Shown piece after piece: positions 2,686-26,094 of a DNA stretch of 26,564 nt. The stretch's first letter is position 1; the number at the start of each line of letters is the position of its first letter. The DNA lies in IMG/VR virus record IMGVR_UViG_3300044950_001782, positions 1 through 26,564 of that record. One strand, written 5' to 3'. The position numbers and the translations under genes are program-made. The stretch comes from a virus. The notes beneath the pieces are model-generated. The model ran no database searches, was not told the origin of the DNA, and worked only from the letters and a program-made list of their open reading frames with translations.

Positions 2686-4434
2686 TCAAGCGTCGACCAG
2701 GATGAACTGGACTTCCTCGGCGGCGGCGAGCGTGACGCGCCAGTCGAGGGAGGTAGTGGTGTAGGTGACATCGAGCAGGCTGTAGCCGGGCACCGCCGCG
2801 ACCAGCGCCAGGCTGTCTGCCGTCACGGCCCCGAGATCGGTGTGCTGCCAGGCGGCGCTGGTGATGGCCGTGATCGGATATCGGGTGCTCGCGCGCCCTT
2901 CGATGAATTCAACGACTTCGGATTCACTGCGCATCACTTCGCCCAGGGCGGCGATGACCGTTGCTGGATGCCCGGTGTGTGTGAGCAGAACGGGGCGCGT
3001 TGATGCCAGATAAGCCCGAACTGTGCCCTGGTTGGTGTCGTCCGCATCGGCGACATATTCGATGCGATCGGCGGCGCTCCCGCTCGCCCCGTCCTCGTTG
3101 GCCAGGGTGACCCGGTTGTAGCCGCGCGACGGGGCAATCTGGGCACGGCTGGCCAGCACATCGGCATCGAACAACTGGTGAGCCACCGGCGACTGCCCAT
3201 AGTCAGGGATGCTCACCGTATACCGGCGGCGGCAGACCACCGTGCCATCCGGATTGCTCTCGATGATTCCGCCGATGGCGGCGACCACGCTGCGGGCCGC
3301 CGCGAGCGGTGTCACGCCTTCCATCAGCAGCAGACCAGCGGGGATGGTCCAGTCTGGCAATTGCCAGTCCACGTCGCCGATCAGTTCCTCGACCGCCGTG
3401 CGCGCCGACACCGCCCCAGGCTGGTAATACCGGGTCGTGGCCGCGAAAGGGGCATCGAGTAGCGCCAGCGGCGAGATGGCGGTCAGTTCGCAACGCTGAC
3501 TGGTTTGGGATTCTCGCGATAGAGTCTTGCCGTCCACCACCAGCGCGAAGGTTTCCTGGCCAAGGACCAGGGTGATCGGGTCGCCGATGGCGATAGCAGC
3601 GAAGTCCGCAACCTGCGCGATCTCGACGGTCGCGATCCATACCGGACTGCCCTCATCGCAACTCAGGGTGGCCTGGAGAATGCGGATCGTCTTGTCCTGC
3701 CAGACCAGTTCCGGCGTGTTCATGACCGCTTGCAGATGCTGATCAGCAAGCAACGACCAGGATGCGGTGAGCTGCTTTTTGAGCGGGTTTACATTCGTCA
3801 CGGCGTAGCCAAGGACGAGGTGCGTGGCGACTTCCTGGGTCAGCCAGTAAGTGAGGCGCATGCTTTTTTGGCAAACGCCGAGCTCGGAATACAGAACGAT
3901 GTGCCGCTGCCGGAGCCGGGTCACTTGACTGTAGGGCAGCGTGATTCGTGCCTGAAGCCGGGTTACATCGCCGTATGGCAGGGTGACTTGGGCATGAAGC
4001 CGACTCACCTCAGCGTAGGGCAGAGTGACTCGGACATGATGACGACTTGCCTCGCCGTAGGGCAGATCAATTCGGGTCCTTAGCCACTGCACATCTCCGT
4101 AAAGTAGCGTCACTCGTGACCGGTGTTGGCGGGTATCTCCATAGGGCATGGCCAGGTGCCGCCGATGCTGGCGCAGGTCGCCATAGGGCACCCGGTTCCC
4201 TTTTTCCAGGCGCAAGCCATAGCGGGTCCGGTGCGTGCCGGCAAAGCGCAGCGACCACCCCGACACATTCCGCCACGCCTTGATCTGGGTGAGATCCCAC
4301 GTTGTTACATTGGATGTAAAAACCTCGGTCGTGCCCCAGGCGGCAGAGAACCGAGTACGCACCTTCGCCGGAGCCGCGTCAGCATGAATACTCAGGTGCA
4401 GCGTCAGGCCGATGGTCAGGCCGGTGTCGAACAT
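2686..4434 (-). CDS. Tail hub-like protein with 14-residue tandem repeats
   Basis: This 582-residue protein has two parts. Residues 1-80 are beta-rich. Residues 83 to about 222 are tandem 14-residue units with the approximate consensus LPYGDVxRLxxRVT. Tyrosines fall at exact 14-residue spacing at 84, 98, 112, 126, 140, 154, 168, 182, 196 and 210, the last units being degenerate. Residues 225-582 resemble the body of a siphovirus tail hub, with a helical segment containing TPLAAARSVVAAIGGIIESN, beta-rich stretches, and a C-terminal strand pair ending in VQFILVDA. The start overlaps the previous stop (TAATG). The hub role is inference from position after the tape measure gene. A host-binding or adaptor role for the repeat region is possible. 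Confidence 0.7.
   Translation of the reverse strand: MFDTGLTIGLTLHLSIHADAAPAKVRTRFSAAWGTTEVFTSNVTTWDLTQIKAWRNVSGWSLRFAGTHRTRYGLRLEKGNRVPYGDLRQHRRHLAMPYGDTRQHRSRVTLLYGDVQWLRTRIDLPYGEASRHHVRVTLPYAEVSRLHAQVTLPYGDVTRLQARITLPYSQVTRLRQRHIVLYSELGVCQKSMRLTYWLTQEVATHLVLGYAVTNVNPLKKQLTASWSLLADQHLQAVMNTPELVWQDKTIRILQATLSCDEGSPVWIATVEIAQVADFAAIAIGDPITLVLGQETFALVVDGKTLSRESQTSQRCELTAISPLALLDAPFAATTRYYQPGAVSARTAVEELIGDVDWQLPDWTIPAGLLLMEGVTPLAAARSVVAAIGGIIESNPDGTVVCRRRYTVSIPDYGQSPVAHQLFDADVLASRAQIAPSRGYNRVTLANEDGASGSAADRIEYVADADDTNQGTVRAYLASTRPVLLTHTGHPATVIAALGEVMRSESEVVEFIEGRASTRYPITAITSAAWQHTDLGAVTADSLALVAAVPGYSLLDVTYTTTSLDWRVTLAAAEEVQFILVDA
3811..4188 (-). repeat. About nine 42-bp tandem repeats inside the hub-like gene
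   Basis: The DNA here repeats every 42 bp, matching the 14-residue protein units. On the plus strand, adjacent units at 3937, 3979, 4021 and 4063 each begin with CAG followed by a GTGA-like stretch and end near CCGTA(G/T)GG. Units beginning at 3979 and 4021 are clearly similar base by base, while outer units have diverged. No indel breaks the 42-bp register. This points to expansion by duplication, followed by drift under selection to keep the protein unit length. Confidence 0.85.
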
Positions 4435-5261
4435 TAGAGTGCCGTGAAGCTGGTCGGTGCGGGCAAAGCAAGCGGCGCGTAGTCATTGGTGAACGCCCAC
4501 CATCCTGGCAGCGGCGCTTCGCCCCAGGCATAGCCGCTGGTCAGCTTCATGATGTGTTCGATCTCGCCTTGCAGGTGTGCGCCCGGCGAGTTGTTGATTT
4601 CGCAAAAAAGTGGGGCGACCAGCCGCGGCAAGGGCGATGCAGCATGCCGCTGCATACCCGCAAGCGGTGACCAGAGTGTGCCGACTACTTTGGTATTGAT
4701 AGTGCCCGTTGCAGCGATGGCGTAGGGCGTACGCCAATCTCCACCGTCATAAATGCCGTAGCGACAGACCAGTCCGACATGAAAGTCGGCAGCGTAGCGA
4801 CGCGTCTTCGAGGCCACTGCGCTCGCCTCGAACCAGTTTCCCCACTCAGGGTGCGCGGCGTCCCATTGTTTTGAGATCAGCCACCACCAGCCCGCGTTGC
4901 CATCCGCAGCGAAGGAAATGGCCCGATAAGAGGCCCACTGCGGATCGGTATCGGCATTGAGCAAATACACGCTGTGTGAGGAGCGACTATCGCTATCGTT
5001 GTCATTGACGCCCCAGAGGGCGCGAGCGCGAAGGTTGGGGTAGCTGCCGCCGCCTTGCTCGATGCGCCAGTGCGGGATGTCATCACTGATCGTGCCGGCC
5101 GCGTGGCCAGCAGGAAGCACTTCAAATGCATCGGCCTGGTCCAGGATGACAACAAATCCCGCCGCTTCAAAAAATCCCTTCAGCGTGGCAAACATGGCGG
5201 TCAGTGCCACCGAGTCGAAGTCGCCAGCGGAGTATTCCTTGGTGAAACCCACCGTGGCCAT
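4434..5261 (-). CDS. Tail-tip or virion structural protein (hypothetical)
   Basis: This 275-residue protein begins MATVGFTKEYSAGDF and overlaps the previous stop by one base (TGATG). The N-terminal 50 residues are partly helical (SVALTAMFATLKGFFEAAGF). The rest is rich in Trp, Gly, Ala and Asn with many aromatic pairs (GWWWLISKQWDAAHPEWGNW), typical of globular beta-rich surface proteins. It contains no catalytic motif that I recognise. Its place between the tape measure region and the hub-like gene suggests a tail-tip component, possibly one that contacts the host surface. The exact role is unknown. Confidence 0.65.
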   Translation of the reverse strand: MATVGFTKEYSAGDFDSVALTAMFATLKGFFEAAGFVVILDQADAFEVLPAGHAAGTISDDIPHWRIEQGGGSYPNLRARALWGVNDNDSDSRSSHSVYLLNADTDPQWASYRAISFAADGNAGWWWLISKQWDAAHPEWGNWFEASAVASKTRRYAADFHVGLVCRYGIYDGGDWRTPYAIAATGTINTKVVGTLWSPLAGMQRHAASPLPRLVAPLFCEINNSPGAHLQGEIEHIMKLTSGYAWGEAPLPGWWAFTNDYAPLALPAPTSFTAL

Positions 5262-6276: not shown

Positions 6277-6657
6277 CTACACGGTCATGAGTTTCAGGGT
6301 GGCAAGATAAAAATCGCCGGGCTGGGGGTGGGCCAGGTTGAACAAGGGCTTCGCCTCGAAGGCGGGTGGCTCCTGGTGGCGGAACATCACCTGGAAGGTC
6401 TGGTCACGAAGTTCCAACGTGAAGACGCCGCCCGGGCTGTCAGATCTGAGCTTCAGTGCCTCCACCTGGGTGCGCGTGAACCAGCCAGCGTCCGGTTCGG
6501 ATTCCAGGGTGATGGTCAGGCCGCCGCTGTGCTGGCCGTAGAACACCACCACTGAACCATCCAGGGTACGGCGCACGGTCTGGGCCACCGCCTGGGCGGC
6601 AAATTCATCGGTCCACACCAACCCATCCGGCAGAACCACGGTATCGAGTCGGATCAT
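6277..6657 (-). CDS. Small tail protein, possibly distal-tail (Dit)-like
   Basis: This 126-residue protein runs MIRLDTVVLPDGLVWTDEF, then TLDGSVVVFYGQHSGGLTIT, a WFTRTQVEALKLR helix, and FTLELRDQTFQVMFRH. A 'value-of-target' N-terminus, a glycine hairpin, a helix and a C-terminal strand pair are typical of small beta-barrel tail proteins encoded after the tape measure gene. Distal-tail proteins have this kind of fold, but I cannot confirm homology by eye. The start at 6657 overlaps the upstream stop (ATGA). The protein probably links the tail tube to the larger tip proteins. Confidence 0.65.
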   Translation of the reverse strand: MIRLDTVVLPDGLVWTDEFAAQAVAQTVRRTLDGSVVVFYGQHSGGLTITLESEPDAGWFTRTQVEALKLRSDSPGGVFTLELRDQTFQVMFRHQEPPAFEAKPLFNLAHPQPGDFYLATLKLMTV

Positions 6658-8447
6658 GGCGACAGGGTCTGGATGCGGTGCATCGGGCCAGGCACGGGCA
6701 AATAATCGAAATCGGTGCCATTCGCCTGGCGACGCCGATTGTTGGCCTCGTAGTAGAGGGTGAGTTCGACGTTCACAGTCGGCGGCGCATTGCCGGCCAG
6801 CTTTAGCGTGAAGATGCGCGGCAAGTCGATGTCCCCGGCGACGCATAGGATCTGCTGGGTCTGCATGGTGCCGTTCGGCCAGGTCACGCGCACATAGCCC
6901 CAGACACAATCAAACGCATCGCAAGGCGCGGCATAGTCCATGACGCGGAAAGTCAGGGTATGCAGCCAGCGCAGGGGTGTGCTGTATGTGTCGGTGGCGC
7001 TCCAACCAACGATGGCTACCCGAGCCTGGCTGTCGATATCCGGGTGGAAGGCATCGCAGCCATTCCAGGACACCGGAACGCGCAAGATGACATGCGGAAA
7101 CCAGCCCTGCGGCGGGTAGCCCACGTCGACGCCACCCATCGGAATAAAGCGAATATCCACATCCCGGTCCCAGTGGTAAACGTGGCGTTCCAGGGTGAGC
7201 CGCAGCTTGATCGTCTCCGGCGTCGCCCCAGGCAGAACCGTGATGCCGATGACGCCGTCCGACTGAAACAGGTTGAAGTCCTGGACGGCGTCCGCAGCGA
7301 GTTCCACCTTGCCGACCAGACATTCGGGCAGGACCACGACCACTTCCTGCGTCACACCCAGCGCAGCCAGCCCGACATCGACCTGGGGCAGCACGATATG
7401 CGGCGTGCCGGGGCTGTTGAAGATTCGGTGCCGGGCGACGATGGGGCGCGAGTCGATCGTGCCGACATGGTTGATCGAAAGGGTGATCGTATCCAGTGTC
7501 TCGCCACTGCCGGATCGGATGCGCACCAGGGTGATCGCGCTGGGCAGCGCCCGGATGAGGACATCATCGATGCACCCTGGCGGCACGTGGTTCCAGTTGA
7601 ACACGGGGGGCGGGTTTACCCAATGCGAACAGACGCCCAGGTAATAGCAGTAGAAGTCGGTGTAGGCGTCTTTGTTGTTAACACTCAGACTGGTGGCCGA
7701 CCAGGTATCCAGGACCGCGCCGGTGTTGGCCCACTCGGCGGAGAAATCCAGACGGATAGACGCCACTTCCAACTCAGTTTGAAGATCGTCGTAGACCTGT
7801 ACCTGGGCTGGGATCGGCAGGAAGCGGTGGTCCGAAATTCTTACCGCGCCCTGTATGCTCTCGGCGGTGAGTTGCAGATCCCGCAACGACAGTGGATTGG
7901 CTGGATTCAGCAGACTATTCACCGGCCGCATCGCTTGCTCAATCGCATCCAGGTCATAGGTGGCGCTGCTCCCTTTCCAGAAGATCGAGCGCGGCACACT
8001 GACCGGCGGTGCATTCGGATCGACGGGATAACTGGGGTGGTCAGGATCGAAGTTCGGATCGAACGGATCGCACGGCGGCGGCATCCCGCCTGTCGGGGTG
8101 AAATGCACGTTGAGTTGAGTCGACAGCGCCACGGTGGGCTGGCTTTCGCTCATGGCTGTCCGCGCTGCGAGTTTCGAAGCCACCCGCAGTTGCAAGCCGC
8201 CTGGCGTTTGCGTGTCAGTCACGCCACCTTGCAGGCAATCCTGATATTCCTGCTCGGCCGACTCCAGCGCTGCCTGGTAGGGCTCATCCCATTTGGCAAT
8301 AAACCAGTTGCGCGCGTAGTCGGTCATCTCGCCGCCGTACTGGTTGAGATACCCCGGAATCCACTCGAAACCGGGTGGCGTACAGACTTGGGGATTGGGC
8401 TCGCGCCGGACACACGCTTTCAGGGGAATACGCACGCTGGCGTCCAT
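6654..8447 (-). CDS. Large cysteine-containing tail protein with Asp/Pro linker
   Basis: This 597-residue protein follows the tape measure gene. Residues 1-115 are mixed, with a helix around KWDEPYQAALESAEQEYQDC. Residues 120-150 form a Pro/Asp-rich linker (DPFDPNFDPDHPSYPVDP). The remaining 440 residues are mostly beta strand (for example TLVRIRSGSGETLDTITLS). About a dozen cysteines are spread over the chain, which is unusual for a phage tail protein. I take the ATG at 8447, which overlaps the tape measure stop (TGATG); a GTG at 8450 is the alternative. The position is where distal tail or tip proteins lie. I cannot assign a known family. Confidence 0.7.
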   Translation of the reverse strand: MDASVRIPLKACVRREPNPQVCTPPGFEWIPGYLNQYGGEMTDYARNWFIAKWDEPYQAALESAEQEYQDCLQGGVTDTQTPGGLQLRVASKLAARTAMSESQPTVALSTQLNVHFTPTGGMPPPCDPFDPNFDPDHPSYPVDPNAPPVSVPRSIFWKGSSATYDLDAIEQAMRPVNSLLNPANPLSLRDLQLTAESIQGAVRISDHRFLPIPAQVQVYDDLQTELEVASIRLDFSAEWANTGAVLDTWSATSLSVNNKDAYTDFYCYYLGVCSHWVNPPPVFNWNHVPPGCIDDVLIRALPSAITLVRIRSGSGETLDTITLSINHVGTIDSRPIVARHRIFNSPGTPHIVLPQVDVGLAALGVTQEVVVVLPECLVGKVELAADAVQDFNLFQSDGVIGITVLPGATPETIKLRLTLERHVYHWDRDVDIRFIPMGGVDVGYPPQGWFPHVILRVPVSWNGCDAFHPDIDSQARVAIVGWSATDTYSTPLRWLHTLTFRVMDYAAPCDAFDCVWGYVRVTWPNGTMQTQQILCVAGDIDLPRIFTLKLAGNAPPTVNVELTLYYEANNRRRQANGTDFDYLPVPGPMHRIQTLSP

Positions 8448-11407
8448 CACGATCCCCGCGACAGTTCACGCAGCGCGCTGGCCAACTGCATGGCGGTGTC
8501 GCGGCTGGATTGCACGGTGTGCGGCTTGCCGCCGACATGAAAGCGAAGGTCGACCACGTCGCGTGCGGGAGTCGAGGAAATATCGCCTCCCATCGTCGCC
8601 TGCGCCACAGCATTGGCCACGGCCCCCCCCGCCGCAAAACGAGGTATCTGAGGCACAAAGCCGGCATTGAGCGCTGCGAAGAAGCCCTCGCCGAACTTGC
8701 GCACCGAAGCCGCGCGCATCACGAATTCGCCGTGCGATAGCAGCGCCGGCACCGAGTCCGAGGTTTCTGTGCCGGGACCGAAGATGCGCCCTGACATTTT
8801 TCGGAACCCGTCCATGACGGATTGACCACCCTCGGCGAACCGCTGAATCATCCCGCCCTGGGCATTGGTTGCCACCCTCGTCACATAGACAGTGTGGCGG
8901 CTCGAAGTGGGACGCATCAGTTCCGCCATCGCCGCGCGGTACTGGCCGAGATCAGGCTGCGGCGTGTGTGTCGCCGTCGTTGGGTTGGATAACACCGTGC
9001 GCGCATCCTGCGCGAACGACGTCAGTTGCGCCCGGGGCTGGTCGAAGGACACTAGCGCCGGGATCTCCACCTTGGCTGCCGACAGCGTGCCCTTCAACTG
9101 CTCGATGTCGGTCATCACCTTCGTGGTGTCGGCCTCGACCTTGGCGACCAGGGCGAGGTTGCCCGTGTTGGTTTTCAGCTTTTCCAGAGATGCTTCTGCT
9201 TCTTTCGTGTCGGCCTGGATCTTGGCGATCAGTTGTTGGGCGTCGGTCAGCGCTTTCAGTTTCTCGATGCCGGCTCGCGCGCCCTCGATATCGACCTCGA
9301 GTTTCAGCTTGTCCTGGGAGAGCAGTTGCTGGCGCAGCTTGCCGAGTTCATCGGAGACCGAGGCCAGCGCACGATTGGCCTCATCGGCGCCAGCCCCTGC
9401 CGCTGACGCGGCTTGTTTGTGGGCATCACCAAGTCCCTTGAGCGCTACGTCGGCAATGCCGGCCGACTCCTTGATTTGCCCGATGGCGGTGGCAGCGGCT
9501 TGGCCCTCGGACACCATCGTCTGCGTGACCGTCTTGCCGTTCTGCTCGACCTGCTGGGTGACGGCGGACGCCGAACGCTCAGCCAGCGCAATGGCTTCCT
9601 CAGCAAGTTTGCGGGCCTGCTCGTAGTTGCCCGCATCCAAGGCTGCCTTGGCCTGGGCCTGTTTCTCGTCGATCTGGCGCAGCCGGTCCTGATAGGCGGC
9701 GTAGTCGTCCAGACCCTTGCGCCCCAGTTCGCGGATGCGATCCTCGACCGAGAGCTTCAGGGCAAGCCTTGCTTCTTCGGCCGCCTTGGCGGCATTGAGA
9801 TGCCGTTGTTCCTCGGCGATCAGCCGGTCGACCGTGGCGCGATAGGCGGATTCCAATTGGCCGTACAGGGCGACGCGCGCCTCCACCGCCTGGCGTTCGA
9901 TGGCTGCCACATCCTGACCCGCAGCCCGCGCCAGGGCGATAGCCTGGCCATAGGTGGTTTTCCAGGCAGCTTCCATTTGTTTCGCACCGGCTTCGACAGC
10001 GGCCAACTTCTCCCGCTCGGCGGCGAGCAGGCTCTGGGCGGAATTCTGGATAGCGGCCGACTCGGAACGGGCCGCGCTCTGCGCCGCCGCCTCCTGGCGC
10101 TTGTAGTTGCTCTCGACCTCGGCCACGCGCGCATCCCAGATCGCCTTGATGTCGGCGGCGACCTGTTTGTAACTGGCGGACAGCTGCTTGACCGTCTCTG
10201 CGGCCTTTTTGGTTTCCGCATCAAGCGCCTGGCGGATGGCTTCGCCGGCTTGCGTGGCCGCGCCCTGAATCGCGCGCAGGGCGTCCGCCGTGCCAGGCAG
10301 CGCTGCTTTCAAGCGTTCGGCCGCCAGGGCGGCCAGTGCCATCTGGGTTTTTACGCTCACCGTGCCGGTTGCGGCCAGTTCCTGCAGCGCGGCATCGAGT
10401 TGATCGATCTGCGCCCGCTGTCGGCCCATCTCGTCGATGGCGCGATTGGTCTCACGGATGTCCTGCACCGTCTTGACGAGCCCCTTGCCCATCTCCCAGA
10501 CGGCTACCGCCGCCAGGATGGGCAGGAAACGGGTGAATGCGACCTTCAACAAGTTGACTGATTCCAGCAGTTTGGCCGCCGCTGCGACGCCCTTGACCGC
10601 CAGCACCGCCACCAGAACTTCGCCCAGTGCGCGCATCACGGCCAGAATCTCGTCGCCGTGGCTGGCCAGCCCCACGAGGGCGTCAGCCAATCGCTGCAAG
10701 GCGGGGAGTGCCGCTTCGGCCACGCGCAGGGCAATGCCGGACAGCGCCTGTTTGACCGTGTCGAGCGTGTCGTTGAATTTCTCGGCAGCCTTCGCGGTGT
10801 CGCCGCTGATCTCCAGGCCCAGTTCCTTGAACTTCTGCTTCAGTTCCTCGATGCCGGCGCGGCCCTGGTTCAGGAACGGGATCAACTCGACGCCGGCCTT
10901 GCCAAAGATCTTCACGGCTAGCGCCGATTTCTCGGCCCCATCCGGCAGGGCGGCGAAGGCGTCGGCCAGATCGAGCAGCACTGCCTCGGTCGGGCGAATC
11001 TGGCCAGCGGCATCTTTCACCGAAACGCCAAGCCGACTGAAGGTTTCAATCTGCTCCTTGGACCCGCCCGCCGCCTCGACCATCGCGGTCGCCAGCTTCT
11101 GCATGCCCTTGGCCAGGCCCTCCAGCGAAATGCCGGATTGCTCGGCGATGGGTTTCAGCAGTGACAGCGACTCGACCGAGATACCGGTCTTCTGCGACAG
11201 CTTGGACAGATCGTCGGCGGTATCGAGTGCGGCCTTGCCAGCGGCCATCAACCCCGCGACCGACAGCGCCGCGCCCAGTCCGGCCAGCATGCCATTGACC
11301 GATTTGGCTGCGGTGGTGATCCCCTCCAGGCCGCTCTTGACCGAGGCGAACGCCTGCTTGGTTTGGTCGATGGCAGCAATCAGGATCTGGGCGCGTTCAG
11401 AGGCCAT
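8447..11407 (-). CDS. Tape measure protein
   Basis: This 986-residue protein should set tail length and be ejected into the host envelope during DNA entry. The N-terminus (MASERAQILIAAIDQTKQAF) leads into a helical region with hydrophobic segments at about 38-60 and 265-310. A long Ala/Lys/Glu/Gln coiled-coil stretch spans about 380-780 (repeated AEEA, ALDA and KLKTN-like motifs). The C-terminus carries the GPGTETSDSVPALLSHGEFV block, characteristic of many siphovirus tape measures. It is the longest gene in the window and follows the chaperone and tail-completion genes, as expected. At roughly 0.15 nm per residue it would suggest a tail near 150 nm, a rule-of-thumb estimate only. Confidence 0.95.
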   Translation of the reverse strand: MASERAQILIAAIDQTKQAFASVKSGLEGITTAAKSVNGMLAGLGAALSVAGLMAAGKAALDTADDLSKLSQKTGISVESLSLLKPIAEQSGISLEGLAKGMQKLATAMVEAAGGSKEQIETFSRLGVSVKDAAGQIRPTEAVLLDLADAFAALPDGAEKSALAVKIFGKAGVELIPFLNQGRAGIEELKQKFKELGLEISGDTAKAAEKFNDTLDTVKQALSGIALRVAEAALPALQRLADALVGLASHGDEILAVMRALGEVLVAVLAVKGVAAAAKLLESVNLLKVAFTRFLPILAAVAVWEMGKGLVKTVQDIRETNRAIDEMGRQRAQIDQLDAALQELAATGTVSVKTQMALAALAAERLKAALPGTADALRAIQGAATQAGEAIRQALDAETKKAAETVKQLSASYKQVAADIKAIWDARVAEVESNYKRQEAAAQSAARSESAAIQNSAQSLLAAEREKLAAVEAGAKQMEAAWKTTYGQAIALARAAGQDVAAIERQAVEARVALYGQLESAYRATVDRLIAEEQRHLNAAKAAEEARLALKLSVEDRIRELGRKGLDDYAAYQDRLRQIDEKQAQAKAALDAGNYEQARKLAEEAIALAERSASAVTQQVEQNGKTVTQTMVSEGQAAATAIGQIKESAGIADVALKGLGDAHKQAASAAGAGADEANRALASVSDELGKLRQQLLSQDKLKLEVDIEGARAGIEKLKALTDAQQLIAKIQADTKEAEASLEKLKTNTGNLALVAKVEADTTKVMTDIEQLKGTLSAAKVEIPALVSFDQPRAQLTSFAQDARTVLSNPTTATHTPQPDLGQYRAAMAELMRPTSSRHTVYVTRVATNAQGGMIQRFAEGGQSVMDGFRKMSGRIFGPGTETSDSVPALLSHGEFVMRAASVRKFGEGFFAALNAGFVPQIPRFAAGGAVANAVAQATMGGDISSTPARDVVDLRFHVGGKPHTVQSSRDTAMQLASALRELSRGS

Positions 11408-19099: not shown

Positions 19100-19488
19100 C
19101 AGCGGTAGACCACGACGTTGATCTCGCTGGAGTCAGACAACGTGCCGGAGGGTGTGGCGCAGACCAGCTCGACGTCATCGGTCGTCTTGTCATCGCAGCT
19201 CACGCGGGCGGCGGCCATCTTCATCGACTTGTCGCTGTTGCGGGCGAAGGCCAACCAGCAGTAGTGCTCGTCGGGCATGGATTCGGCGAAGACCACTCGG
19301 TACTTGCCGGGAGCCAGCCGCATGACTTTCTTCACGTTGTGCCCGGCGTGAACCACGACCTCACCCCGTACCCACCCGAAGCACACCCAGGCGCGGGCGA
19401 GGCCCGGATGCTCTGGGGTGACCCGGGCCTTCAGTTCCTGGCCGATGCGCGTGGCGAGTGCCGCGATGTGCTGCGCCAGCGTCATCAT
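19099..19488 (-). CDS. Small fibre-tip-like virion protein
   Basis: This 129-residue protein starts at ATG 19488 (one-base overlap with the upstream stop); an in-frame GTG at 19491 is an alternative. The N-terminal 25 residues are helical (LAQHIAALATRIGQELKARV). The rest is strand-rich, with KYRVVFAESMPDEHYCWLAF, a DKSMKMAAARVSC block and SGTLSDSSEINVVVYR. 'Gly-Lys-Tyr-x-V-x-F-x-x-x-M-P-x-x-x-Y' followed by a final V-V-V-Y strand is typical of C-terminal tip domains of phage tail or head fibres. It may be the receptor-binding end of a fibre whose stalk is encoded at 20330-20821. This is an inference from pattern. Confidence 0.65.
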   Translation of the reverse strand: MMTLAQHIAALATRIGQELKARVTPEHPGLARAWVCFGWVRGEVVVHAGHNVKKVMRLAPGKYRVVFAESMPDEHYCWLAFARNSDKSMKMAAARVSCDDKTTDDVELVCATPSGTLSDSSEINVVVYR

Positions 19489-20264
19489 CACAGGCGAACC
19501 GTGGCGGTTAGTAGCCGACGCTCGGCGGCAAGGCGCTTGATCAGCGTGCGGTCACCCTGATACTCGATCTGGTAGTTCTGTGGCGAGGGGACCAGGATGC
19601 GTTGCGTGGGCGGGGCGTAAAACTGAACTTCGGCGATGGCCAGGGCACCTTCGTAATCTGGCCTGGCGGTTGCCGTGACGTTGATCTCCCAGCAAGTAAA
19701 ACTGGCCGATTGGGACAGGCTGAATTCACGTCGCTGACTGTTGCTCCAGACCACACCGGTACGTGCGTCCACCTGCGTCCAGTTCACCCCGTCGTAGGAA
19801 CCGCGCAGTGTCCAGTCTCGTGGCGCACTGTCGCCATACGCGCTGCGCGAGGTCATGGCGTAGCTCAGCAGGCTTTTGGGTGTCGTGAAACAGCAGCGCC
19901 ACCAACCACTGGTGAGGTAAGAACCGGCTGTCCAGTGCATGGCGAGATTGCCATCGACCGCGCGCCAGGGGCCGGCAATAGTGGGATGGGTCGTCGACGC
20001 AGATATCGTGCACTGGGACGAGGTGTTCCCAGTCATCACCGGAATTAGGCTGCCGCCCGGCTCGATGACCTGTTCCGCCAGCGAGATCAGGCGTTGATAT
20101 TCCGGATCGCTGATATGGACGATCTCCAGGGATTCGCCCGGGCCCAGATCCAGTGTCTGCCGGCTGCCAGGCAATACAGTGGGAACCGGCGTGGTGGGAT
20201 TACCCAGTCGCAGCTGGGTGATCCAGTCGCGAACCGTGCCCAGATGGGTGTCGAGTGTGCTCAT
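19488..20264 (-). CDS. Discoidin (F5/8 type C)-like virion protein
   Basis: This 258-residue protein has a helical N-terminus (MSTLDTHLGTVRDWITQLRL), then a beta-rich body. Residues 95-225 resemble an F5/8 type C or galactose-binding-like domain: HPTIAGPWRAVDGNLAMHWT, YLTSGWWRCCFTTP, DWTLRGSYDGVNWTQVDART, a CWEINVTATARPDYEGALAI stretch and AIAEVQFYA. The order 'DGN...W...W...L-x-GS-x-DG-x-x-W-x-x-x-D' and the closing 'x-I-A-E-V/I-x-F' strand are the main signs. Such domains bind glycans. It lies between the fibre-stalk-like gene and the fibre-tip-like gene, within the head module. It may decorate the capsid or be part of a host-binding fibre. Confidence 0.75.
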   Translation of the reverse strand: MSTLDTHLGTVRDWITQLRLGNPTTPVPTVLPGSRQTLDLGPGESLEIVHISDPEYQRLISLAEQVIEPGGSLIPVMTGNTSSQCTISASTTHPTIAGPWRAVDGNLAMHWTAGSYLTSGWWRCCFTTPKSLLSYAMTSRSAYGDSAPRDWTLRGSYDGVNWTQVDARTGVVWSNSQRREFSLSQSASFTCWEINVTATARPDYEGALAIAEVQFYAPPTQRILVPSPQNYQIEYQGDRTLIKRLAAERRLLTATVRL

Positions 20265-23358: not shown

Positions 23359-23397
23359 GGAATCCAGAGAGAAATTGATGGTTTTGTTCGAGATTCA
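23359..23397. other. Divergent intergenic gap between late block and accessory block
   Basis: These 39 bases separate the TerS start (leftward) from the first promoter-like repeat (rightward). The leader of the late mRNA and perhaps its promoter must overlap this gap and the repeat. I see no clear sigma-70 hexamer pair for the leftward direction here; transcription of the packaging genes may start further right or need a late activator. A cos site cannot be recognised by eye. Confidence 0.5.
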
Positions 23398-23428
23398 GCT
23401 TGGCTTGTCTCTGGCACAGCGCGTTCAT
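23398..23428 (+). promoter_or_regulatory. Promoter-like repeat, copy 1
   Basis: This is the first of six 31-bp elements: GC, TTGGCTT, an 11-nt spacer, then AGCGCGTTCAT. TTGGCT and GTTCAT sit 17 bp apart, the normal -35/-10 distance. The leader to the ATG at 23463 is 34 nt with a GGAG Shine-Dalgarno. The spacer is GTCTCTGGCAC in this copy. Confidence 0.75.
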
Positions 23429-23462
23429 GACCACACCATCAACCACGTCCACGGAGACGAAC

Positions 23463-23732
23463 ATGACCACGCAAACCCCCGAAAAACGCCAGGAAATCGT
23501 TGACGAACTACGCGATATCCAGATGCAGATGCTGGAGTGCCTGGAGCAAGCCAAGACCCTGATCAAGCAAAGCGGCCAGGAGATGACGCTGCAACGGGCC
23601 GAGTCCTACTGGCTTGCCCACACCAAGATCGCCCTGACCAACGACCACAGCTACTTGGGCGGCTCGATGTGCTCGATGGAAGACACCATCGCGGAAATCG
23701 AAGATGCCACGGAGGACGACGACGAGGACTGA
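23463..23732 (+). CDS. Small acidic accessory protein (hypothetical)
   Basis: This 89-residue protein starts MTTQTPEKRQEIVDELRDIQ, then runs MQMLECLEQAKTLIKQSGQE as a helical stretch. It continues TLQRAESYWLAHTKIALTND, then HSYLGGSMCSMEDTIAEIED, and ends in a very acidic tail (DATEDDDED). It is likely soluble and helical. I do not recognise a family. The start is the ATG at 23463 with GGAG at a good distance; a longer reading from the TTG inside the repeat is not supported. It is the first gene of the rightward accessory block. The acidic tail could mimic DNA or bind a basic partner, but that is speculation. Confidence 0.75.
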   Translation: MTTQTPEKRQEIVDELRDIQMQMLECLEQAKTLIKQSGQEMTLQRAESYWLAHTKIALTNDHSYLGGSMCSMEDTIAEIEDATEDDDED

Positions 23733-23740
23733 TCGAGATC

Positions 23741-23769
23741 GGGAAGCCCGGCGAAATGCTTGGCTTCCC
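23741..23769 (+). other. Inverted repeat overlapping repeat copy 2
   Basis: GGGAAGCC (23741-23748) and GGCTTCCC (23762-23769) are perfect 8-bp arms around a 13-nt loop. The right arm includes most of the TTGGCTT block of copy 2. It could be an operator or a hairpin at the 3' end of the preceding gene. No T-tract follows. Confidence 0.45.
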
Positions 23770-23788
23770 GCTCGAACAGCGCGTTCAT
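23758..23788 (+). promoter_or_regulatory. Promoter-like repeat, copy 2
   Basis: Same layout as copy 1: GC, TTGGCTT, spacer CCCGCTCGAAC, AGCGCGTTCAT. The leader to the ATG at 23824 is 35 nt with AAGGA. The first part of the leader is identical to that of copy 3 (CACATCACCATCAAC). Confidence 0.78.
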
Positions 23789-23823
23789 CACATCACCATC
23801 AACGACCTCAGAAGGACACGACC

Positions 23824-24033
23824 ATGACCCAGATCGACACCATTTACGCCCTGATCGCCCAGAAGCACCTGCGCATCGACACCCTGGAAACCCGCCATTC
23901 GGATCGCCTCGATTTCCACGACTTGGCGGTCTGGAGCGTCCGCGACGCGCTGGAAGCCGCGTTCAAAGCGGGCGTCGAAGTCGGCATGAACGTGTCGCGC
24001 CCCTCCGAGCAGGACATCGCCAGCGTTGACTGA
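23824..24033 (+). CDS. DUF6900-like small protein
   Basis: This 69-residue protein reads MTQIDTIYALIAQKHLRIDT, then LETRHSDRLDFHDLAVWSVR and DALEAAFKAGVEVGMNVSRP. The pattern 'H-L-x-I-x-TLETR-x-SD-x-LDFHD-x-AVW-x-V-x-x-ALEAA-x-x-AG' matches DUF6900, a family of short proteins in phages, plasmids and integrative elements. It is helical and probably soluble. No biochemical role is known to me. The ATG at 23824 has an AAGGA Shine-Dalgarno. The frame that reads through the repeat is not in phase with this gene, which confirms that the repeat is a leader and not coding. Confidence 0.85.
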   Translation: MTQIDTIYALIAQKHLRIDTLETRHSDRLDFHDLAVWSVRDALEAAFKAGVEVGMNVSRPSEQDIASVD

Positions 24034-24043
24034 ATTCAGATCG

Positions 24044-24070
24044 AAGCCCAAGCCCGAAACGCTTGGCTTC
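24044..24070 (+). other. Inverted repeat overlapping repeat copy 3
   Basis: AAGCCCAAGC (24044-24053) pairs with GCTTGGCTT (24061-24069) around a 7-nt loop, with one bulged C; a flanking G-C pair extends the stem. As in copy 2 the right arm is the TTGGCTT block. Copies 1, 4, 5 and 6 lack a clear left arm of this kind. Confidence 0.45.
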
Positions 24071-24091
24071 ACCTCGGAACAGCGCGTTCAT
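24061..24091 (+). promoter_or_regulatory. Promoter-like repeat, copy 3
   Basis: GC, TTGGCTT, spacer CACCTCGGAAC, AGCGCGTTCAT. The leader to the ATG at 24126 is 34 nt with GAAGGA. The right half and the start of the leader are the same as in copy 2. Confidence 0.78.
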
Positions 24092-24125
24092 CACATCACC
24101 ATCAACCACCCCGAAGGAACAGCAA

Positions 24126-24662
24126 ATGACCACCCTCCAACTCACCGCCACCCAGCACGCCATCCTGGCCTATGCCATCCACCACACTGACGGCAAGATC
24201 GATTGGTTCCCGGAGAACATCAACGGCGGCGTGCGCAAGAAAGTCATCGCCGGATTGTTCAACCGCGCATTGATCACCCCCAACGGCACGGACTGGTTCG
24301 TCGCCGCCGAGGGTTACGACGCGCTGGGCTGCACACGCCCCGCGCCCATCACGCCGGAAGCGGGCGAGGCCGACGCCAGCCACGACGAAGATCCGGAGAT
24401 CGAAGCGGCTGTGGCCGCCATCGAAGCCAAGGCGCACGCCGAAGCAAAGCCACCCCGCACCCGCGAGAACAGCAAGCAGGCCACCGTGATTACGCTACTC
24501 AAACGTCCGGAGGGCGCGACGATCGCACAGATCTGCAGCGCCACCGGTTGGCTGCCCCACACCGTGCGAGGCACCTTTGCCGGGGCGTTTAAAAAGAAAC
24601 TGGGCCTTGTCCTGACATCGGAGAAGGCCCAGGGCGGCGACCGGGTTTACCACGTCGCCTGA
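24126..24662 (+). CDS. DUF3489-domain protein (winged-helix-like)
   Basis: This 178-residue protein starts MTTLQLTATQHAILAYAIHH, an N-terminal helical domain with KIDWFPENINGGVRKKVIAG and LFNRALITPNG that looks like a small winged helix. Residues 75-115 are acidic and Ala/Glu-rich. The C-terminal 65 residues (ENSKQATVITLLKRPEGATI, AQICSATGWLPHTVRGTFAG, then AFKKKLGLVLTSEKAQGGDR and VYHV) are the DUF3489 domain, a helix-turn-helix-like unit with 'ATIAQI...TGW-x-PHTVRG'. The family is common in phages and plasmids and probably binds DNA; targets are unknown. The start has GAAGGA. The gene may regulate the repeats in this block, but that is speculative. Confidence 0.88.
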   Translation: MTTLQLTATQHAILAYAIHHTDGKIDWFPENINGGVRKKVIAGLFNRALITPNGTDWFVAAEGYDALGCTRPAPITPEAGEADASHDEDPEIEAAVAAIEAKAHAEAKPPRTRENSKQATVITLLKRPEGATIAQICSATGWLPHTVRGTFAGAFKKKLGLVLTSEKAQGGDRVYHVA

Positions 24663-24668
24663 TTTAGT

Positions 24669-24689
24669 TGGGGCGGCTTTTCCGCCCCA
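24669..24689. terminator. Hairpin between convergent genes
   Basis: TGGGGCGG and CCGCCCCA form a perfect 8-bp stem with a CTTTT loop, between the stop of the DUF3489 gene (24662) and the stop of the HU-like gene (24694). It could terminate transcription from both sides, although neither side has a long T-run after it. Confidence 0.6.
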
Positions 24690-24693
24690 TCCA

Positions 24694-25026
24694 TTATTTC
24701 TTCTTGGCGGGTTTAGCCGCTTTGGTGGCCTTGGTGGTCTTGGGCTTCTTCACCGGATTTACCAAGGCTTTCAAGGTGGCGCCTGCTGTGAATTTCGGCA
24801 CCGTTGCAGCAGCAATTTTGAGCTTCTCTCCCGTTTGGGGATTCTTGCCCTCTCGCGCGGCACGCTGGCTGGTCTTGAAAGTGCCAAAGCCGATCAAGGT
24901 GACTGACTCCCCCTTGGCCATCGTTTCAGACAGGGTATCCAGAACAGCGGCCAGTGCGCGACCTGCGTCGGCCTTGGTAAGTTCGGACTTGGCAGCGATG
25001 GCGGCAATCAGCTCGGTTTTATTCAT
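24694..25026 (-). CDS. HU-family DNA-binding protein with lysine-rich tail
   Basis: This 110-residue protein starts MNKTELIAAIAAKSELTKAD at the ATG at 25026. It has the full HU/IHF fold: N-terminal helices, the VTLIGFGTFKTSQRAAREGK strand region, the DNA-binding arm with NPQTGEKLKI, and FTAGATLKALVN. About 18 residues are added after VN, a KKPKTTKATKAAKPAKKK-like tail, giving histone H1-like basic character. HU bends DNA and compacts it. A GGAG lies 8 nt before the ATG. The gene runs against the flanking accessory genes and has its own promoter candidate upstream. It could be used in packaging, recombination or control of the accessory block. In-frame extension upstream is not used. Confidence 0.95.
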   Translation of the reverse strand: MNKTELIAAIAAKSELTKADAGRALAAVLDTLSETMAKGESVTLIGFGTFKTSQRAAREGKNPQTGEKLKIAAATVPKFTAGATLKALVNPVKKPKTTKATKAAKPAKKK

Positions 25027-25053
25027 TTTGCGTCTCCGGGTTTTGGAGGTCGC

Positions 25054-25083
25054 ATTGTCACCAAGGAATTCATGGGCTTGCAA
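25054..25083 (-). promoter_or_regulatory. Candidate sigma-70 promoter for the HU-like gene
   Basis: On the minus strand TTGCAA (25083-25078) and GACAAT (25059-25054) match four of six bases each of the -35 and -10 consensus, with an 18-nt spacer. The start point would lie about 20 nt before the HU ATG, leaving room for its GGAG. The region does not resemble the six rightward repeats. Confidence 0.35.
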
Positions 25084-25114
25084 GCGATGAACCGGCAATC
25101 TTCTGCTTGGAATA

Positions 25115-25145
25115 GCTTGGCTTCATTCCATGTCAGCGCGTTCAT
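25115..25145 (+). promoter_or_regulatory. Promoter-like repeat, copy 4
   Basis: GC, TTGGCTT, spacer CATTCCATGTC, AGCGCGTTCAT. The leader to the ATG at 25179 is 33 nt with CCGGAG. This copy lies back to back with the HU-like gene, about 90 bp from its start, and drives two coupled genes. A partial GCTTGG also occurs 10 nt upstream. Confidence 0.75.
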
Positions 25146-25178
25146 GGGGGCGTCATCCACGACCCCCGGAGCCACCCC

Positions 25179-25319
25179 ATGGACTTCCACCTCTACAAAG
25201 CCATCCGCGCCGACGGCACGGTGTACTTCTTCCACCACCGCAGCATGGAGGAGGCCAAGGCCTTCGCCAGTGACGCGGTAAAGGTGATCGATTGCCACAG
25301 CCAGGAGGATGCGCAATGA
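25179..25319 (+). CDS. 46-residue accessory protein (hypothetical)
   Basis: This small gene encodes MDFHLYKAIRADGTVYFFHH, then RSMEEAKAFASDAVKVIDCH and SQEDAQ. The first half suggests a beta hairpin (LYKAIRADGTVYFFHH), followed by a helix (MEEAKAFASDAVK). The start follows repeat copy 4 at the usual distance and has GGAG. Its stop overlaps the start of the next gene (ATGA), so the pair forms a small operon. No family is recognised. The compact alpha-beta pattern suggests a folded protein rather than a random frame. Confidence 0.72.
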   Translation: MDFHLYKAIRADGTVYFFHHRSMEEAKAFASDAVKVIDCHSQEDAQ

Positions 25320-25579
25320 ACACCATCGCCATCGATACCTTGGGGCAACAACTCGGCACCGCAGCCCTGACCACCCTGGTTCGCCTCTGCCCCGAGATCA
25401 GGACCGCCAGCCCGGCGCGACAGGAGGCCGCGTGTGCCGCGATGCGCGCCAAGTCCAAGGATGCCATCGACGAGTTGCTGTCGGACGCCAAGGCTGCGCC
25501 CTGGCTGGCCGAGGTGGCGTTTGCCAGCGCGGTTCTGACCCTCGCCAATGAAGGCATCAGGGTGCTGCGGGCAGGCTGA
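25316..25579 (+). CDS. Small accessory protein, second gene of pair (hypothetical)
   Basis: This 87-residue protein begins MNTIAIDTLGQQLGTAALTT, then LVRLCPEIRTASPARQEAAC and AAMRAKSKDAIDELLSDAKA, ending LTLANEGIRVLRAG. It is almost wholly helical with an Ala-rich middle. The ATG overlaps the stop of the 46-residue gene, so translation is likely coupled. No family is recognised. It has no membrane helix long enough to be sure of, but the segment LAEVAFASAVLTLANEG is fairly hydrophobic. The only gene in the block without its own repeat, it depends on copy 4. Confidence 0.72.
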   Translation: MNTIAIDTLGQQLGTAALTTLVRLCPEIRTASPARQEAACAAMRAKSKDAIDELLSDAKAAPWLAEVAFASAVLTLANEGIRVLRAG

Positions 25580-25607
25580 TCAAACTCACGGAAATGCAGG
25601 TGAATAC

Positions 25608-25638
25608 GCTTGGCTTCTCAATCACACAGCGCGTTCAT
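25608..25638 (+). promoter_or_regulatory. Promoter-like repeat, copy 5
   Basis: GC, TTGGCTT, spacer CTCAATCACAC, AGCGCGTTCAT. The leader to the ATG at 25673 is 34 nt with AGGAG. In this copy the minus-strand frame is broken after six codons (TGA), which argues that the element is not a coding sequence in that direction. Confidence 0.78.
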
Positions 25639-25672
25639 CCTGCCATCACCGGATTCAACCCAGGAGCGCCCC

Positions 25673-26047
25673 ATGAGCATCACCCTGCAGATCGACCGCC
25701 AGCAAGAGATGAACCTCAACTACAACAACCGCAACGCAGCCCTGGTCCTGGGCCTACTGAACATCGATGTCGAAGCCGGCTACGGGTGCATCACCCTGGC
25801 AGAAATTCCCAAGGCTCGACGTGCCATCCTCGTGGCCCTCAATGGCACGACCCCGCTGCCTAGCGTCGACCAGGAAGAGGCGTTTGCAACCCGCGTGATC
25901 GATCAGGGCGGCATGCCGACCATCCACCGGTCACAGCGCTACCTCGATCCCGGCATCGACCAGGAAGGCGTTGAACGACGCTTGCGCGAGGTGGCCTCCT
26001 TGTTGGCTCGGGCCAGCGAACTGCAATCCGATGTTTCCTGGTACTGA
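25673..26047 (+). CDS. Accessory protein, 124 residues (hypothetical)
   Basis: This protein begins MSITLQIDRQQEMNLNYNNR, then NAALVLGLLNIDVEAGYGCI and TLAEIPKARRAILVALNGTT. The middle part (VDQEEAFATRVIDQGGMPTI, HRSQRYLDPGIDQEGVERRL) leads into a C-terminal helix (REVASLLARASELQSDV). It mixes an N-terminal alpha-beta part with helices and is probably soluble. No family is recognised. The ATG at 25673 follows copy 5 with AGGAG; longer readings through the repeat are in phase but have no better start. It is the fifth gene controlled by a repeat if the pair at 25179 is counted as one unit. Confidence 0.75.
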   Translation: MSITLQIDRQQEMNLNYNNRNAALVLGLLNIDVEAGYGCITLAEIPKARRAILVALNGTTPLPSVDQEEAFATRVIDQGGMPTIHRSQRYLDPGIDQEGVERRLREVASLLARASELQSDVSWY

Positions 26048-26063
26048 ATTTCAATCAAGATAA

Positions 26064-26094
26064 GCTTGGCTTCCCTGGCACACAGCGTGTTCAT
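26064..26094 (+). promoter_or_regulatory. Promoter-like repeat, copy 6
   Basis: GC, TTGGCTT, spacer CCCTGGCACAC, AGCGTGTTCAT (one change, C to T, in the right block). The leader to the ATG at 26132 is 37 nt with AGGAG. The distance between blocks is again 11 nt. Confidence 0.75.

Follow-up and report, generated by a model that had tools for sequence, protein, structure and literature searches.

In-frame 14-residue tandem repeats of variable copy number on the N-terminal side of a predicted siphophage tail hub

Tail hubs decide when a phage fires. To our knowledge, none of the solved hubs of the Mu gp44/T4 gp27 type (1wru, 3cdd, and 3d37), which have a body fold in common with residues ~240 to 582 of the protein described here, carries a 14-residue array. 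Short strand-turn repeats with a Gly/Pro turn, in numbers that set the length of the structure, form the triple beta-spiral of the adenovirus shaft (PF00608), in which the unit is 15 residues rather than the 14 found here. The excerpted text of a study of gpJ-like hubs, including those of lambda and Jersey (PMC13243795), describes variable additions on the N-terminal side, as in the hub studied here, that extend downward into a zone called hypervariable and presumed to lie close to the cell wall. The additions in that excerpt are globular or Ig-like domains, with no tandem 14-aa array mentioned, and the evolution of the outer additions of hubs is poorly described.

The window analyzed here is the whole 26,564-nucleotide stretch of IMG/VR record IMGVR_UViG_3300044950_001782, a 26.6-kb contig encoding terminase gpA, a lambda-type portal, an S49 protease, capsid protein E, a major tail protein, a tape measure protein, and lysis genes. 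Within the tail module, the hub gene (2686 to 4434) lies downstream of the tape measure gene (8447 to 11407), and the lysis genes come next (endolysin, 102 to 563). Gene order around the hub is kept in IMG/VR relatives and in betaproteobacterial metagenome-assembled genomes (MAGs) (Thiobacillus, Sulfurimicrobium, and Rhodocyclaceae). The hub gene has the following parts.

2686 to 4434, minus strand: hub gene carrying the array, 582 aa (open reading frame, translation, PHROG 24698/6079, relatives in IMG/VR and betaproteobacterial MAGs)
3811 to 4188, minus strand: nine exact 14-aa (42-bp) units, residues 83 to 208 (autocorrelation and shuffles, TRF, AlphaFold model of the sister protein L002)
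3937 to 4062, minus strand: units 4 to 6, mutually the most alike at 71 to 79% DNA identity (unit-by-unit DNA identity matrix)
3742 to 4299, minus strand: quasi-periodic N-terminal region, about residues 46 to 231, with diverged outer units (aromatic spacing, the same in relatives)
2689 to 3717, minus strand: predicted gp27/Mu gp44-like hub body, about residues 240 to 582 (Foldseek, PHROG 24698)

A hub-like body had been proposed in a preliminary description of this sequence, and Foldseek agreed: the modeled body gave 17 PDB matches at E <= 0.001, hubs and VgrG proteins among them, which assign it the gp27/Mu gp44/VgrG fold. The matches included 3d37 (the best, E 8.9e-7), Mu gp44 (1wru, 4.9e-6), MuSo2 (3cdd), Milano (8fqc), VgrG, and a Neisseria tail protein. 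Profile matches to PHROG 24698 (E 2.3e-39) and PHROG 6079 (E 4e-24) begin at hub residues 280 and 310, beyond the array, and the window's own array matched neither profile. A sequence search with the hub protein found no match to any PDB chain; the T5-type hub 8hqz, a weak match (E 0.58), was set aside as a sequence relative. Together, the predicted fold, the PHROG matches, and the conserved gene order identify the product of 2686 to 4434 as a siphophage tail hub that bears a long addition on its N-terminal side.

Within that addition, window positions 3811 to 4188 (minus strand) correspond exactly to residues 83 to 208, that is, to nine units of 14 aa or 378 bp: PYGDLRQHRRHLAM, PYGDTRQHRSRVTL, LYGDVQWLRTRIDL, PYGEASRHHVRVTL, PYAEVSRLHAQVTL, PYGDVTRLQARITL, PYSQVTRLRQRHIV, LYSELGVCQKSMRL, and TYWLTQEVATHLVL. 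Tyrosines stand at positions 84, 98, 112, 126, 140, 154, 168, 182, 196, and 210. BLOSUM autocorrelation of residues 83 to 210 peaked at lag 14 (1.97; 41% identity) and lag 28 (1.64) only, and the lag-14 score was matched by 0 of 20,000 shuffles, bearing out the 14-residue tandem repeats and ten tyrosines of the preliminary description. Its 42-bp units without indels were likewise recovered, the 378 bp making nine units and TRF reporting a 42-bp array with 0% indels at 3931 to 4066, where the units are least diverged. Among 16 major window proteins, the hub protein alone had 14 as its top period.

Looser units flank the exact array, marked by aromatic residues at 46, 60, and 72 before it and 226 after it, with spacings of 14, 12, 12, and 16. 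The array as first described is correct and somewhat larger than it had been drawn. One point required correction: the repeats had been viewed as inserted between the hub and strands at the N terminus. The periodic pattern instead makes up most of the N-terminal region, and most of the relatives tested, short Vibrio versions included, have a 14-residue period ahead of the hub. The tape measure protein (8447 to 11407) has a period of its own, of 11 residues (z 5.3 at lag 11), unlike the hub's 14.

No named domain had been recognized for the unit, and our searches agree. A search for known repeat families with profiles from Pfam, NCBIfam, PHROGs, and the PDB gave no match to the window array. 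DUF2016 (PF09436) touched an idealized L002 array in four short stretches (best, 15 profile positions; 24.5 against a cutoff of 24.3) and was rejected, these being fragments of a 74-residue domain that has no match in the window array. A search of the open-access literature found no description of a 14-residue hub repeat. With respect to Pfam, NCBIfam, the PDB, and that literature, the 14-residue beta-repeat extension is undescribed, and it sits on a known hub fold.

Periodicity was then measured in 27 homologues from widely different phages, several of them close kin and so not independent, with the distant ones taken from named phages and genomes. In the region before the hub, the mean z was 4.1 at lag 14 (4.07), 3.7 at lag 28, and 1.7 at lag 42; the remaining lags were close to zero apart from a mild excess of even over odd lags, as expected of alternating beta strands. 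The 8-residue period of a T4 gp5-type triple-stranded beta-helix was not found (mean z 0.75 at lag 8 versus 4.07 at lag 14), and the 27 hub bodies averaged -0.35 at lag 14. With the window's close kin removed, the means at lags 14, 28, and 42 were 3.7, 3.2, and 1.3. The lag-14 signal was weak or absent (z < 1.9) in four of the 27 (AS1, HS6, L080, and L046). Unit sequences differ across the family: Vibrio SIO-2-like phages have FxSxYxV, Acidovorax and several proteobacterial prophages have QDAxxLR with W/Q anchors, and others have RLRMPW; the L034 array alone matches positions 74 to 171 of PHROG 6079 (E 3.9e-9). Judged by sequence periodicity, the 14-residue period before the hub is kept in most of the distant homologues tested, and because it is kept while the unit sequences are unrelated, what is conserved is the period and not the motif.

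Array length among relatives was compared by counting residues from the start codon to a common anchor. This N-terminal length is 180 aa in most relatives and 194, 208/209, 236, 251 (the window), or 275 (L002) in others, equivalent to +0, +1, +2, +4, +5, and +7 units with 1 to 4 residues of variation at the N-terminal end. L032 and L034 are four units plus one residue apart, and odd steps occur (+1 in L038 and L028; three units between L003 and the window). L008, L011, and L030 depart from whole-unit steps owing to other indels. Copy-number change between units, as had been suggested, thus stands to the extent that relatives differ by exact whole units, both in N-terminal length and in the DNA unit matrix. 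One MAG (G003) carries five hub versions on five contigs (L057, L062, L065, L067, and L069) with repeat numbers that are not all equal, which suggests several related prophages or co-binned phages.

The outer units of the window and L002 are orthologous (90 to 100% DNA identity) and the middle units are not (71 to 86% across the two, with L002 units 5 and 6 mutually 93% identical), pointing to gain, loss, or homogenization in the middle of the array. By DNA identity, recent copy-number turnover relative to L002 maps to midarray, at units 4 to 6. On the hub tree, array length varies inside the window's clade and in separate lineages, and several relatives retain the 180-aa version unchanged over considerable divergence, so that variable length is not needed by all. 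Such lability in one clade and fixity in another would agree with selectively neutral expansion, through replication slippage in a tolerant, poorly structured linker whose length has no role. We consider this quite improbable, because the period persists in most distant homologues after complete change of the unit sequence and whole units are kept in frame, which together argue that strand length is constrained.

Other genes of the window also vary. Adjoining the hub is a 263-aa protein (4437 to 5225) that is 97% identical in L002 and ~35 to 40% identical in most other relatives, with neighbors that are far better conserved, making it a second hypervariable tail gene. A 598-aa protein between the tape measure and tail genes (6654 to 8450) matched nothing in Pfam, PHROG, or NCBIfam; at its position, L006 and its kin encode an unrelated protein of ~570 aa, so the gene behaves as a swapped module and its product is perhaps a receptor-binding protein. 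Homologues were detected in the window, L002 to L005, L008, L019 to L021, and L038, all with extra array units, and L018, whose contig ends before the gene, was added to this group by hub similarity. Association with longer arrays was rejected as independent evidence, the group having a single origin on the hub tree and the association being one of shared ancestry. In the head gene region, near the terminase and portal, a protein with an F5/8 type C (galactose-binding-like) domain (19488 to 20264) is a possible capsid decoration. In the early region (23394 to 26094), a 35-nt direct repeat (GCTTGGCTT ... ACAGCGCGTTCAT) occurs six times, mostly directly upstream of a small open reading frame, and it resembles a phage promoter or regulatory element present in several copies.

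Residue preferences within the hub unit were tabulated from 145 unique units of the window and 15 relatives, some out-of-phase windows included. The aromatic residue at position 2 is given by construction; P, G, and D/E are preferred at positions 1, 3, and 4, Arg predominates at positions 9 and 11, and position 14 is hydrophobic in 80%. These preferences fit a single beta strand whose outer face is basic, together with a tight turn. AlphaFold gave low confidence for the array in the full-length window protein (pLDDT 25 to 41) and pLDDT 56 to 70 for the array when the N-terminal region of L002 was modeled with 30 sequences. The L002 model does contain a repeating unit: twelve strands of 8 to 11 residues are parted by turns, with one strand of 9 to 11 residues per unit in the exact array and a turn at LPYG[D/E] in each unit. 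At this confidence, the strands may pack as a solenoid, a meander, or a trimeric stalk. It is thus supported at modest confidence that each 14-residue unit is one beta strand plus a turn. The beta repeats with a YGD turn of the preliminary description are upheld to that degree; its choice of stacked hairpins or a solenoid found no significant fold match, the best PDB comparison of this modest-confidence model reaching E 0.11 and TM 0.36, with solenoid-type neighbors.

Those neighbors (the SufB/SufD beta-helix, LRR, hemolysin, and pectinase), nonsignificant as they are, would agree with a self-contained beta-solenoid in each monomer, two 14-residue strands forming a 28-residue coil and the whole serving as an independent receptor- or carbohydrate-binding arm. 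The same reading would account for L063, L073, L074, and L075, in which the 28-residue period is stronger than the 14. We regard it as unlikely. No fold matched the N-terminal model at E <= 0.001, very regular monomeric solenoids are usually predicted with higher confidence, and the odd unit changes noted above disfavor a strict 28-residue coil.

Somewhat easier to entertain, if still doubtful, is an intertwined trimeric beta fiber, similar to a triple beta-spiral, in which each unit would form one layer of a rigid central needle or plug that must open for ejection. In its favor, the hub's structural relatives are trimeric, the array tolerates any whole number of units, monomer models have low to modest confidence, and the 15-residue adenovirus shaft repeat is similar in unit length and in its Gly/Pro turn. 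Set against this are the absence of any Pfam match, PF00608 included, for either the protein or the array, and a period of exactly 14, not 15.

When the L002 array was searched against 50,697 phage records, only Aeromonas chi-like phages were returned, and an Aeromonas unit used as query added one further phage, 13AC503A. The Aeromonas arrays have ~14 to 25 recognizable 14-residue units (e.g., PPYGLRSTVQAELL or APYGLQPGVIADLT) at the extreme C terminus of a gpJ-like hub protein of 1,396 to 1,526 residues, the core of which is homologous to the JBD30 hub (8rk3, E 1.7e-55) and the Chi tail tip (8vjh, E 1.5e-70). Phages phiA034 and vB_C4 are 97.7% identical outside the array and nine units apart; AVP3 and BUCT552 have different unit sequences in proteins otherwise 98.7% identical. 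Five other phages with related cores were examined: JG012 and AL-2 end shortly beyond the core, and Chi-like iEPS5 carries a Pro-rich tail in place of an array. In AhMtk13b (L098:1035-5414) the hub ends in another reading frame of the array (GSDSPLRADRWVPA repeated), which reflects either a frameshift within the array or an error in sequencing. Beyond P-Y-G, homology between the window units and those of Aeromonas did not survive a column-shuffle control, columns 4 to 14 in register scoring -10.3 against a shuffled mean of -9.2. Because the columns are no more alike than shuffled ones, we claim analogy, in P-Y-G, period, and composition.

The model we favor, at somewhat less than even confidence, is that the array extends the hub trimer as a beta-repeat structure of adjustable length that probably faces the cell and acts as a tip stalk or antireceptor platform. 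The extension would be modular and lie on the N-terminal side of a gp27/gp44-type siphophage hub, each unit contributing a single strand, roughly VxRLxxRVT, and a single tight turn, LPYG[D/E]. The hub would be trimeric like its structural relatives, in which case three arrays would project together from the tail tip, probably beneath the hub and facing the cell. There they could form a stalk or platform, the number of units setting its length and the exposed faces able to contact the cell envelope. Whole units would be gained or lost, with the frame intact, by unequal recombination or slippage between 42-bp units. Trimeric packing, the cell-facing position, and the stalk or antireceptor role are inferred, the cell-side location by analogy with other hubs; the Aeromonas C-terminal arrays, the fast turnover of units, and the tolerance of any whole unit number make a cell-facing stalk or platform the likeliest reading.

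The opposite placement would have the N-terminal region line or plug the hub lumen or contact the tape measure protein, its length mattering little. In the excerpted account of gpJ-like hubs, an AlphaFold assembly of the Jersey hub did put the N-terminal region in the lumen, a placement that its authors judged implausible (PMC13243795). A lumen that holds the tape measure and later DNA would need room for up to seven extra units (98 aa per chain), and the analogous Aeromonas array is at a C-terminal tip; we think an internal element very improbable.

Beyond the favored stalk or platform, we suspect, with more doubt than conviction, that an unnamed repeat of one strand plus a turn in exactly 14 residues serves siphophage tail tips generally as a building block, preceding the hub in one lineage, following it in another, and tunable in length and surface. 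If so, gain and loss of whole units would set the length and sequence turnover the surface of a tip stalk or antireceptor that phages can adjust. Of the new points, the strongest is that most of the family keeps the period; function is the weakest. A length quantized at 14 residues, with a period that outlives the sequence, is a concrete structural constraint to explain, and unit number offers a simple handle on how hub length and surface affect adsorption. Cultured Aeromonas phages with analogous arrays make such experiments possible.

Among described systems, one sequence relative of the window hub, in Psychrobacter Y8A, is annotated as Mu-like gpP, and others belong to PHROG 6079 (tail protein) and PHROG 24698 (unknown), among them proteins of Vibrio SIO-2 (VPEG_00094), Stenotrophomonas S1 (gp21), and Acidovorax ACF1. 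Members of these PHROGs have a homologous body, preceded in most of those tested by the 14-residue period, and in the Vibrio phages the gene order resembles that of the window. Their units (QDAxxLR..., FxSxYxV..., and RLRMPW...) are unrelated to the window's and usually degenerate, and no exact array like the window's was seen in the members examined. Arrays are found in the Casjensviridae phages vB_C4, BUCT551, BUCT552, AVP3, phiA034, PhAER-6, 13AC503A, and AhMtk13b, in which the array is C-terminal and attached to a different hub lineage (JBD30 gp53/Chi type), whereas the window array is on the N-terminal side of the hub. These Aeromonas arrays and that of the window nonetheless have in common a period of 14, a P-Y-[GN] turn, strand-like units, a location on a hub protein, and a variable copy number, which in Aeromonas differs even between near-identical phages.
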